A DNA stretch of 64,000 nucleotides from NCBI RefSeq assembly GCF_022513585.1, contig NZ_JAKWBF010000002.1, positions 62,001 through 126,000 on the forward strand. The letters are read 5' to 3'. Under the pieces are notes generated by a model. That model had not been told where the DNA came from. It saw only the letters and a program-made list of their open reading frames with translations, and did no database searches. The position numbers and the translations under genes are program-made. The stretch comes from Gordonia gummivorans. Lineage in GTDB: Bacteria; Actinomycetota; Actinomycetes; Mycobacteriales; Mycobacteriaceae. Shown one piece after another: positions 40,060 through 45,837 of this stretch. The first letter of the stretch is position 1. Every line of letters starts with the position of its first letter.

Positions 40060-40158
40060 AAGGAGAATCTAACCGGATCAGTGGTGCGGCCTGCGTTGTC
40101 TGAACGAATCTGCTTTCGTCCCCGACGAAACCGGTGATCGGCGTGTTTGAATACTGCA

Positions 40159-41286
40159 ATGTTCGGACTGCTCTCACCGTGCCGCCACGCGTTCGACGAT
40201 GAGTTGATGTCGCAGTGGCGCAGTCACATGTGCGGGTTGTGCGTGTCCTTGCGCGACAACCACGGCCAGGCAATGCGCCTGACGACCAACACCGATGCGG
40301 TCATGGTGTCCGTGCTGACCGCGGCACAACGCGTCGAGGCGCCCGCCTCCACGGAGGTGGGCAGGTGCGCGCTGCGCGGAATGCGCCCGGCCACGGTGGT
40401 CGCCGCGTCGGAACCTGGAGTGCGACTGGCGACCACCACGTCGCTCACCCTCGCCGCCGCAAAGGCTTTCGATGTCACCGCCGAACAGGACCACGCGCTG
40501 GCACCTCGGTCTCGGGTGCGGTCGGCAGCGCTGCGCCAGGCGGGCCGGCGCCTCCGCTCGAGTGCCGGCGCAGACGAGTCGACCGCGATGCAGCTCGGCG
40601 TCGACGATATCCTCGAGACGCTGTCTCACCAGGCCGAAATCGAGTGTGATAGTTCAGAACTCGACCAGATCACCCAGGCATCCGGTCAGGCCTGCGCGCA
40701 GGTGTTCGCATCCTCCGCCGAGTTGTCGGGAACGCCCGCCAACGCCGACCATCTCGCGGCAATCGGATTCGACTTCGGCCGCATCGCGCATCTCCTCGAT
40801 GCCATCGACGACTACGAATCCGATCACGAGTCAGGCAGCTTCAATCCTCTCCGGGCCACGGACACGTCACGCGAGACCGCGCTCGCGGAATGTCGCACGC
40901 TCGCCGACGCGATTCGAACCCGCTATGCGAAACTGACCGTCCACGACGACCGGTTGCTCAGGGTCCTGCTGCTCGGCGGACTTCAGCGCGCGATCGGCAG
41001 GCGCGAACCCCGATCCGAGTGTCGCGCAACCCATCACCATCGCATCCCGACCGCCGCCGACACCCAATGGCCACCGATGCGACCACCCAACTATCCCGAT
41101 GACTGGCCCTACCCGCCGCCATTCAAACCGAACCGCAAGCTCCACGAACGCATCCTGCCGTTCATCGGTGTCTCGTGCTTCGGCAAGGCCTGCGTCGTCG
41201 ACCATTGGAACCACTGCAGCGACAAGTGGAAAGACGCCGCGTGCGACGACTGCGACTGCTGCGATTGTTGCGACTGCTGCGATTAG
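40159..41286 (+). CDS. DUF5685 family protein with Cys-rich tail
   Basis: A 375-residue helical protein of the DUF5685 family, starting 'MFGLLSPCRHAFDDELMSQW' and 'RSHMCGLCVSLRDNHG' with conserved Cys pairs. The core has 'GFDFGRIAHLLDAIDDYESD'. After a Pro-rich linker (about 300-325) the end is 'CDDCDCCDCCDCCD', a tandem Cys/Asp run that could bind a metal cluster. Some DUF5685 proteins resemble isoprenoid-synthase folds. TTG 40147 is an alternative start. Confidence 0.82.
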   Translation: MFGLLSPCRHAFDDELMSQWRSHMCGLCVSLRDNHGQAMRLTTNTDAVMVSVLTAAQRVEAPASTEVGRCALRGMRPATVVAASEPGVRLATTTSLTLAAAKAFDVTAEQDHALAPRSRVRSAALRQAGRRLRSSAGADESTAMQLGVDDILETLSHQAEIECDSSELDQITQASGQACAQVFASSAELSGTPANADHLAAIGFDFGRIAHLLDAIDDYESDHESGSFNPLRATDTSRETALAECRTLADAIRTRYAKLTVHDDRLLRVLLLGGLQRAIGRREPRSECRATHHHRIPTAADTQWPPMRPPNYPDDWPYPPPFKPNRKLHERILPFIGVSCFGKACVVDHWNHCSDKWKDAACDDCDCCDCCDCCD

Positions 41287-43265: not shown

Positions 43266-44156
43266 TCATCTGACCGGGAGGTCGATGTCGACCAGAACGA
43301 ATTGGCGCACCCGGCCGGCGATCCCGGCCGTGCACGTCGACAACAGGGGCTCGGAGAACTGCTCACCGAGCACCACGTCGATCGGGCCGAGTTTCCCGGC
43401 GAGCCGCACCTGAATCTGATGATCGGCGTGCGTGACCGCGAGCGGCGCAAGGGAATCGATCAGATCGTCACCGGTCTCTTGCCGCACGAAATACTGTGCC
43501 GCCTGTACCGCGTGGGGCAGCGAGGTTCGGCCACGAAGCAGGGAATTGTTCAGCCGCCCTTGGGTATAGCGTCGGATCAGATCCGCGGCGTCCGCCGCTG
43601 TGTCGACGCGGCCGTAGCACAGGCCGTGCGGCAGCACGATCATCGTCGCGGCGAATCGGTCACCGCCCAGGTGCGAACACTCCCACGTCCATTCCGGGTA
43701 TGCGGCGGCGATCGCCGCCGTCGCAGCCCGTCCGCGCACCGCGCAGCACCGGTCGTGTTTCCCGTGAGCGCATACGGCGATCACCGGATCGGCAGATGGT
43801 TCGCCGTCCGACCCGTCCAGGGCCAGATCCAGGTAGCCCTCGGGCCCGGCGACCTCGCCACCGAACACCGCCTCCGCACCCGGTTCGGCGTGCGCGATGA
43901 ACCATCGCCAGCGCGGGGTGGCGTCACGTCGACCGGGTCGGCGGATGGCGACGATACGCATCTTGGCGGTCTCGACGCGGCGGACAATCGACCAGCCCAG
44001 GTCGGGGTCGATGGTGGTGGGTGACGTCAGGAACGCGGAGTGCCCCCACGGACCCGACAGCTCGAGCAGCACCCAGGAAACTCCCGCCGAGGCCGTCCCG
44101 TACATCGGGTCAGCACGATCGATGGACTGGTCACTGCACGGGCGGCGCTCAGCCAT
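43266..44156 (-). CDS. Sucrase/ferredoxin-like protein (thioredoxin-fold Fe-S)
   Basis: A 296-residue Suc_Fer-like protein. The signature 'VCAHGKHDRCCAVRGR' carries the Cys residues that bind a [2Fe-2S] cluster in thioredoxin-like ferredoxins; 'WECSHLGGDRFAATMIVLP' and 'GLCYGRVD' are family marks. It starts inside the stop of the cupin oxygenase gene (ATGA), so the two are co-translated. It may supply electrons for the oxygenase; inference. Confidence 0.87.
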   Translation of the reverse strand: MAERRPCSDQSIDRADPMYGTASAGVSWVLLELSGPWGHSAFLTSPTTIDPDLGWSIVRRVETAKMRIVAIRRPGRRDATPRWRWFIAHAEPGAEAVFGGEVAGPEGYLDLALDGSDGEPSADPVIAVCAHGKHDRCCAVRGRAATAAIAAAYPEWTWECSHLGGDRFAATMIVLPHGLCYGRVDTAADAADLIRRYTQGRLNNSLLRGRTSLPHAVQAAQYFVRQETGDDLIDSLAPLAVTHADHQIQVRLAGKLGPIDVVLGEQFSEPLLSTCTAGIAGRVRQFVLVDIDLPVR

Positions 44157-45418
44157 CAGCTGCGCTCGGAATCGCCGGATGCAAACGAGTCAGACGAGGC
44201 CGATTCCGCGGGCCGGGACACCACGACCACCGCTTCACGCAGGAGTCGACGTAGTACGACGAGGGCGTCGTGGGTGTCGAGGCCGGGTAGTTCTGGCGCG
44301 GTGTACACATGACCAGTCTGCAGTGCTCGCAGAGCTGGGGCACACAGCCCGGGGAAGGTCACCACGCGGTCAGGTAGCCGCAACTCGACTCGTTCGCCGT
44401 GTACCCGCACGGACGCGATGAGCCCGCGCCGCCATCGCACGGCAGTGTCGTCTCCGAGGGCGGAGACCTCACGCAGTGTCGCGATGGGTCGCACGGCCGC
44501 GGGGCGAGTTCGTTCGGAGAAGCGCGCGGTGACCTTTGCGCCCACCGCCTCATCGAAGAAGGTCTCGCGCTCCCGAAGAACGTCGATCAACCCGGCGACC
44601 GCCTTGGTGGCGATCGCCGTGGTCTCATCCGGGTCGGTGAGATCGACGCCCATCGGAAGCGAGCTCCGTAGTTCGGAGTTGGCTGCGAGCTTGTCCGTGA
44701 CCGCTCGGACGACATCGAAGACGGTGATCGCCGCGACACCGATTGTGAGGTGAATCGACGTGTGTCCCAGCGCTTTCGCGGAGTGCACCCAACCGCGCGG
44801 CAGATAGAGGGCATCCCCGGGTTCGAGGACCGTGTCGAGGATCGGCTCGTCGCGGACGCGTTCCTCGATCGCTTCGCGATGATCGGTCCACGGTTGTGAG
44901 ACAAGCGGATCGGTGTGCACCGGCGCGTGCACCGTCCACCGTTTGCGGCCGTCGGCCTGCAGGACGAAGACGTCGTGCACGTCGTAATGCGGATCGAAAC
45001 CTCGATTTGCCGGTGGCGTGATGTACGCGTTCGCCTGCACCGGGTGGCCGAGGTCGTCGATGAGTCCACGCACGAAATCGATGATCGGGGGCCACAGTCG
45101 GTGCAGGCCTTGCAGCACGATCGTGGCGCCTGCCGCGAATTCGGCCAGCACCTTGGCCGAATCGACCTGGTCGGGCATCTCGGCACCGAATCCGGCCGGC
45201 CCGGCGTAACAGTCGCGCGAGATGAGATCGCCGTCCTTGGCCATCCGGATGAACGGCGTGCGCACCCCGCGTTCGGCGATCAGTTCGTCGACGTTCTCCG
45301 ACGACAGCAGATCGCCGAAATCACGGGGCAGCGCCGCAGAACGAGTGAGCAGCGGACGTCGACCCCAGACCTCGCGCGCGAACACGTTCGCATCGGTGCT
45401 GATGCAGCGACTCAGCAT
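44156..45418 (-). CDS. JmjC/cupin_4 oxygenase (ROXA/NO66/MINA-like)
   Basis: A 420-residue Fe(II)/2-oxoglutarate protein-hydroxylase-type enzyme. The iron motif is H144-x-D146 in 'PHYDVHDVFVLQADG' with a distal His in 'PRGWVHSAK' (about residue 212); 'RKRWTVHAP' follows as in ribosomal oxygenases. The C-terminal 150 residues hold helical dimer and winged-helix-like parts typical of MINA53/NO66, which hydroxylate His, and YcfD, which hydroxylates Arg. ATG 45418 comes 25 bp after the repeat-peptide gene. The frame extends to 45697 but only as an out-of-frame read of that gene. Confidence 0.88.
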   Translation of the reverse strand: MLSRCISTDANVFAREVWGRRPLLTRSAALPRDFGDLLSSENVDELIAERGVRTPFIRMAKDGDLISRDCYAGPAGFGAEMPDQVDSAKVLAEFAAGATIVLQGLHRLWPPIIDFVRGLIDDLGHPVQANAYITPPANRGFDPHYDVHDVFVLQADGRKRWTVHAPVHTDPLVSQPWTDHREAIEERVRDEPILDTVLEPGDALYLPRGWVHSAKALGHTSIHLTIGVAAITVFDVVRAVTDKLAANSELRSSLPMGVDLTDPDETTAIATKAVAGLIDVLRERETFFDEAVGAKVTARFSERTRPAAVRPIATLREVSALGDDTAVRWRRGLIASVRVHGERVELRLPDRVVTFPGLCAPALRALQTGHVYTAPELPGLDTHDALVVLRRLLREAVVVVSRPAESASSDSFASGDSERS

Positions 45419-45443
45419 CGTTCTCGAGTGATTACGTTGCGGT

Positions 45444-45710
45444 TCAGGCAGTTCCGTCGGCACCGCCATCGTGACCATCGGGGTTCGACCCGCCATCGGC
45501 CGGACCTTCGCCGGGATCGGCGCTGCCGTCGGCGCCACCGTCATGTCCCCCGGGGTTGGAACCACCGTCGGCCACGCCCTCACCCGGTGCGGCGCTGCCA
45601 TCGGCGCCACCGTCGTGACCCCCTGGGTCGGAACCACCGTCGGCCACACCTTCACCGGGTTCGCCGACGCCCGTACCACCTGTTTCGATGTCATCATCTT
45701 CGATTGCCAT
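45444..45710 (-). CDS. Tandem-repeat Gly/Asp/His peptide, candidate oxygenase substrate
   Basis: An 88-residue protein: an acidic leader 'MAIEDDDIETGGTGVGEP' and three 24-residue repeats with the core 'GGSDPGGHDGGADGS', each having one His (32, 56, 80). It contains no Cys, Lys, Arg or aromatic residue. A good GAGAGG site precedes ATG 45710. It is directly upstream of the JmjC oxygenase, on the same strand, 25 bp apart. The pattern of a leader plus identical cores next to a modifying enzyme is that of RiPP precursors; alternatively a structural repeat protein. Confidence 0.72.
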   Translation of the reverse strand: MAIEDDDIETGGTGVGEPGEGVADGGSDPGGHDGGADGSAAPGEGVADGGSNPGGHDGGADGSADPGEGPADGGSNPDGHDGGADGTA

Positions 45711-45837
45711 CGGACATCCTCTCGTCATGTCGGAGTCGCGCGGATCCGGACTCCTCTCTCCAATATGGCGAGATCCATCTGAGGTTTCGTTGGTTTGACC
45801 AGATTCGCGTCTCATTCGTCACGCGAATCCGCTCCGA

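Follow-up and report, generated by a model that had tools for sequence, protein, structure and literature searches.

The question raised by this locus is whether a short, repetitive peptide encoded directly upstream of a JmjC-type oxygenase and a sucrase/ferredoxin-like (Suc_Fer-like) gene is the substrate of that oxygenase and, if so, which of its residues would be modified. The window, i.e. the whole 64,000-nucleotide stretch of Gordonia gummivorans DNA that was analyzed, carries the three genes on its minus strand in the order peptide, JmjC_2, Suc_Fer-like (Table 1). An earlier note on this DNA had described an 88-aa peptide with an acidic start and three 24-aa repeats, with one histidine in each (His32, His56 and His80), followed by a JmjC oxygenase and an Fe-S-type gene. 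The ORF at 45444-45710 bears out this description of the peptide, and the two neighboring products match PF08007 (E 6e-29) and PF06999 (E 1e-15). The 4-bp overlap claimed for the oxygenase and Fe-S genes is actually 1 bp (TGATG, with the shared base 44156); in many relatives, the offset between the JmjC and Suc_Fer genes is about -4.

Table 1. Positions of the features of the peptide-oxygenase-Suc_Fer locus in the window.
Feature	Position	Strand	Remarks
Repeat peptide, precursor-like, 88 aa, without Cys	45444..45710	-	Acidic N-terminus and three 24-aa repeats; homologues; dN/dS 0.079
Leader-like N-terminus MAIEDDDIET	45681..45710	-	Local version of the family motif [LI]x[DN][DE][DE][IM]xT (alignment)
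Repeat 1, GEGVADGGSDPGGHDGGADGSAAP	45585..45656	-	
Repeat 2, GEGVADGGSNPGGHDGGADGSADP	45513..45584	-	
Repeat 3, GEGPADGGSNPDGHDGGADGTA	45447..45512	-	
JmjC_2 (PF08007) Fe(II)/2OG oxygenase, 420 aa	44156..45418	-	HxD...H = H144/D146/H212; wHTH/RRE-like C-terminal domain, ~327-400
Suc_Fer-like (PF06999) thioredoxin-like-ferredoxin protein	43266..44156	-	CX8C ... HX3D variant
RBS-like GAGAGGA 5' of peptide	45717..45723	-	Same 7-mer enriched upstream of homologues
Probable promoter element CATATTGG at -57	45760..45767	-	Matches CATAGTGG, at -49 to -58 in most Gordonia homologues

The JmjC frame remains open to position 45697, giving a 513-aa ORF that crosses the repeats in another frame, and the peptide could therefore be suspected of being a frame artefact. 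This explanation was rejected, since selection acts in the peptide frame and homology to other oxygenases begins only after the peptide, at MLSRC (45418), about 25 nt past the peptide stop. The peptide reads MAIEDDDIETGGTGVGEPGEG...DGTA, and TRF detects a 72-bp array at 45454-45663 with 2.9 copies and a score of 266. Codon-aware comparison of 359 pairs gave a median dN/dS of 0.079, indicating strong purifying selection, while the shifted frames of the same gene display the opposite pattern, with non-synonymous change exceeding synonymous change. Membership in a known peptide family was rejected as well, as no Pfam or NCBIfam model covers the peptide; a search with three precursors at E values up to 10 returned nothing beyond a 5.9-bit chance match. 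The genome of G. gummivorans holds a single copy of each of the three genes, so a multi-copy cassette in the host was dismissed, and so was plasmid carriage, the best plasmid matches being Streptomyces cupins of only ~30% identity. Elsewhere in the window, positions 40147-41286 (+) encode a DUF5685 protein with a Cys-rich tail, CDDCDCCDCCDCCD.

A near-relative set of 80 loci from Gordonia, Mycobacterium/Mycolicibacterium, Dietzia, Rhodococcus, Williamsia and Antrihabitans was fetched by means of the oxygenase. The earlier note had made its proposal depend on the peptide being conserved beside the oxygenase in other genomes, and such conservation was found, the peptide lying directly 5' of the oxygenase in 79/80 of these loci. 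Using an objective acidity criterion, an acidic peptide was found just upstream at 129/136 family loci, compared to 5/2555 random positions (0.2%). Together with a substitution pattern confined to the peptide frame, this recurrence puts the peptide beside the oxygenase far beyond chance. At two of the 79 loci, L007 and L045, the peptide frame is broken and the oxygenase apparently intact, where sequencing error and loss are indistinguishable. Suc_Fer follows 3' of the oxygenase in at least 75 of 81 loci, and some family members have no Suc_Fer within the stretch fetched. In an order-level scan, the genomes with the oxygenase and those with the peptide coincide in the window's GTDB family (15/15), the peptide not being found in the remaining sampled genomes of that family; the two are thus co-inherited.

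The trio recurs together through Actinomycetota. Matches to the JmjC profile were obtained in 59/397 genomes drawn from the phylum and in 155/250 from the order; some of the weaker ones are JmjC relatives that do not belong to the trio family. Within ±4 kb, no gene besides the trio is widely conserved, a dedicated protease or exporter included, and the neighbors differ from genome to genome; a larger biosynthetic cluster was rejected on account of these variable flanks. The linkage of the trio favors the peptide as the substrate of the oxygenase and does not imply a ribosomal one, and we are confident that the peptide serves as a substrate in some way.

Judged from its sequence, the peptide has the features of a RiPP precursor, i.e. 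a short encoded peptide with a conserved leader and a variable core, adjoined by candidate modifying enzymes. The consensus of the near relatives is MA[LI]xDDDITTS..[GEGxADGGSNPxGHDGGADG(T/S)A]2-3, and the leader motif [LI]xD[DEN][DE][IM]x[TS] is kept in most wider members, with distant forms such as LTDEDIxT. Two types of core are found upstream of the oxygenases across the phylum. The DGG core, seen in the window's order and class, consists of xDGGADGG with or without HDGG; one branch of this type (L091) has just one HDGG, after which ADGG is repeated in a long array. The DX core, which occurs in deeper lineages and some members of the order, has Asp at every second or third residue, as in L119 (LTDEDIRTTGSTMPSPTADTSDGDASDASDGDASD...) or in another form, DGTDGDATD.... 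When mapped on the JmjC tree, a quick tree with uncertain deep branches, the DGG and DX types change 2 and 3 times, compared to 23 and 21 times in shuffles, which indicates that the core type is inherited with the enzyme. Odd cores occur at three wider family loci, L094, L113 and L115; two of these, L115 (PTEDDENLDAPGEHSQDTGDE, twice) and L113 (SADGTDQGVxGGTYGPRDA), have non-canonical repeat cores behind the same leader, illustrating a wide diversity of cores. At another locus, L149 (G514:C19:73000-76300), the peptide next to a JmjC relative without Suc_Fer is a different one, MPEEFSLGADDVEVTRTPPASADFVIADNDPSDPVLVIADNDPSDPVL, which contains two exact repeats and may belong to a JmjC-linked peptide group of its own.

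The AF2 model of the oxygenase has a pLDDT of 94, and its closest folds in Foldseek are NO66, MINA53 and YcfD (NO66, E 7e-26). In the C-terminal domain of the model, strands 336-340, 343-347 and 352-356 are followed by helices (bbb-aaa), the order of RRE-like domains. A Pfam-recognised RRE or PqqD domain at this C-terminus was rejected, as the domain gave no match to either in Pfam. Fusions of an RRE-like fold to PF08007 have been reported, and their bacterial homologues occur in RiPP-like contexts (PMC12710340). The C-terminal winged-helix/RRE-like domain of the JmjC enzyme would probably hold the leader, a role that, given the lack of a Pfam RRE match, we infer. A winged helix is, to our knowledge, present in all ROX enzymes, so its presence does not in itself point to leader binding.

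The Suc_Fer partner was likewise modeled with AF2 (pLDDT 95), and the nearest folds are thioredoxin-like [2Fe-2S] ferredoxins (a weak match, E 0.08, probability 0.98). Aim32-type proteins bind [2Fe-2S] via CX8C...HX3H (PMC8482512). The partner keeps CX8C (C129, C138), while HX3H, the second half of this Apd1/Aim32 cluster motif, is absent from the oxygenase-linked Suc_Fers, 41/42 of which have HxGGD (HX3D) in the alignment. A separate scan of the phylum found HxGGD or C in 11/11 oxygenase-linked copies and HxGGH in 17/17 unlinked ones, a difference with a P of 4.7e-8 if the copies were independent, which is overstated because they are related by descent and some of the genomes overlap those aligned. 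A second difference lies in GxRDxCC, the form found in nearly all unlinked copies, which reads GxHDxCC in the linked Suc_Fers. By these signatures, the oxygenase-linked Suc_Fer is a dedicated variant, a putative Fe-S protein. Its role is guesswork, since an ordinary 2OG oxygenase, as far as we know, requires no Fe-S partner.

Upstream of 56/77 peptide genes, mostly mycobacterial (L004-L066 and others), lies a GTTT-N13-18-GGxxA element, compared to 1.5 expected from shuffles. The SigF consensus is GTTT-N14-19-GGGTA (PMC4694148), and the likeness suggests control by a stress sigma factor and hence stress or stationary-phase expression in mycobacteria. Gordonia, including the window, has CATA[G/T]TGG at about -57 in place of the SigF-like element. 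Metal-regulator boxes were rejected, as IdeR- and Zur-like patterns are found upstream of 0/77 peptide genes, with SigF-like promoters in mycobacteria instead.

Which residue the oxygenase would modify was considered from both core and enzyme. The earlier note had proposed hydroxylation of one His per repeat, which would make the enzyme act as MINA53 and NO66 do in Gly-rich ribosomal loops. Among 208 mycobacterial-type repeats, His is indeed kept in 200, and NO66 and MINA53 are the nearest solved structures. MINA53 and NO66 are selective for His in vitro (PMC9994133), and NO66 positions its target His with Tyr328 and Ser421 (PMC4556315). Y132 and S221 of the oxygenase appear to align with these two residues, so, judged by the pocket alone, His may be the target in the DGG clade. 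The same repeats, however, have two Asp columns conserved in 208/208 and a third in 207/208, and at the His position the exceptions are Ala, in the last repeats of Dietzia, and a single Gln; L092, a relative from the class, has Gln there in all three repeats. ADGG units expand without His, as in L091 and L141, and core His is absent from 23/53 wider precursors, while 130/130 precursors have at least 6 core Asp and no Cys. Throughout the deeper half of the family, the cores are Asp-alternating and mostly lack His, and the oxygenase beside them has the same catalytic and pocket residues. The iron triad HxD...H is kept in 50/50 members, and the triad, N130, Y132 and R53/R58/R107 are found in 24/24 members of the His-containing clade and 26/26 of the His-free clade, with S221 in 23/24 and 26/26, respectively. 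Asp is, by this comparison, the sole candidate residue common to all cores and, with the pocket also shared, is favored as the site. Oxidation at C-3 of Asn, Asp and His is known from FIH, a related JmjC enzyme (PMC9994133). The earlier assignment is weakened by the His-free cores; it is probably wrong or incomplete, and we consider hydroxylation of the single His of each repeat unlikely.

Two further explanations concern the chemistry and the substrate. The JmjC enzyme and Suc_Fer may go beyond hydroxylation and desaturate, cross-link or otherwise oxidise Asp, with the Fe-S partner serving a second electron step. Such a step would give a purpose to a dedicated partner with an altered ligand signature beside a 2OG enzyme that does not need one, and RiPP-macrocyclising 2OG enzymes are cited in PMC12710340 (ref. 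45). Members without a detected partner exist, however, and the second step has no positive support, making this explanation quite improbable. Alternatively, the peptide may merely work alongside the oxygenase, as an acidic regulator, metal buffer or chaperone, and the true substrate of the enzyme would lie elsewhere, e.g. in a ribosomal protein. Near relatives of the enzyme do act on ribosomal proteins, and the lack of a protease or exporter conserved nearby is consistent with a peptide of this kind. Yet the core type tracks the enzyme tree, the leader motif stays constant while the cores diverge, and the presence and absence of peptide and oxygenase match in the window's GTDB family. These traits are typical of an enzyme and its substrate, and we regard a peptide that is not the substrate as very improbable.

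The reading we favor, with a modest degree of confidence, is a RiPP-like trio: guided by the leader and helped by a dedicated Fe-S-type partner, the JmjC enzyme would beta-hydroxylate the repeat core at many of its Asp residues. The conserved linkage supports the earlier proposal of a peptide-modification cassette, in which a MINA53/NO66-like oxygenase and an Fe-S-type partner accompany a repeat peptide. In the proposed mechanism, a ribosomal peptide with a conserved acidic leader (MAxxDDDIxT locally, LTDEDIxT elsewhere) and a repetitive Asp-rich core would be held through its leader by the C-terminal winged-helix/RRE-like domain. With Fe(II), O2 and 2-oxoglutarate, the JmjC domain would then hydroxylate the Asp residues of the repeats at C-beta, each 24-aa unit of the window's peptide having three Asp-Gly sites. 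The outcome would be a peptide with abundant beta-hydroxy-aspartate, and the His next to Asp may perhaps be modified too in the DGG-type clade. The Suc_Fer partner might provide electrons or iron, or carry out a further oxidation step. As no exporter or protease is conserved nearby, the product is proposed to be an intracellular, stress-regulated, metal-binding peptide. Metal binding by the final product is the simplest guess, albeit a doubtful one. We put forward only tentatively, as somewhat less than an even chance, that the trio represents an undescribed phylum-wide class, in which the JmjC enzyme and a re-liganded Fe-S partner turn Asp-repeat cores into poly-beta-hydroxyaspartate, or into a further oxidised or cross-linked form, and the resulting peptides, produced under stress, act inside the cell as a metal ligand or redox factor.

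A cassette so widespread and conserved should have a basic physiological role. The trio provides a compact system of two enzymes for hydroxylating a peptide at many sites and a natural test of how a leader steers a JmjC enzyme, and its Fe-S-type partner is a new one in which the ligand motif is swapped. The earlier note knew of no described RiPP class with this trio, and none was found in the open-access literature searched, nor was a description of JmjC, PF08007 or PF06999 with a RiPP or precursor peptide.

The best matches of the oxygenase in both sequence and fold are the ROX hydroxylases MINA53/RIOX2, NO66/RIOX1 and YcfD, which share the JmjC_2 domain, the HxD...H site and the winged-helix C-terminus. 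In contrast to these, the present enzyme has the genes for a small acidic repeat peptide and Suc_Fer as linked neighbors, and carries the family-invariant residues R53, R58, R107, Q103 and H148. Among RiPP enzymes, BipG of the biphenomycin pathway is likewise a 2OG oxygenase of the JmjC type with a ribosomal precursor as its substrate (PMC12707348). BipG, however, is an ornithine hydroxylase whose cluster includes MNIO, rSAM and TldD-type genes, which are not conserved at the trio, and its system has no repeat core. CinX of cinnamycin is a RiPP Asp beta-hydroxylase, and enzymes with this activity usually modify one site. Asp beta-hydroxylation in a ribosomal peptide, the reaction proposed for the trio, is also carried out by SmaO of graspetide group 18, and in the corallotides a 2OG oxygenase acts once per repeat on a long repetitive precursor (CorA/CorC) (PMC13097080). 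SmaO- and CinX-type hydroxylases reside among lanthipeptide or graspetide enzymes and have no Suc_Fer partner, unlike the trio; in the CorA/CorC system, Lys is hydroxylated after graspetide cyclisation, whereas the trio has no ATP-grasp ligase. The partner, finally, has PF06999 and CX8C in common with the Apd1/Aim32 sucrase/ferredoxin-like [2Fe-2S] proteins and differs from Aim32 in its ligand motif, HX3H (PMC8482512) being replaced by HX3D and GxRDxCC by GxHDxCC.
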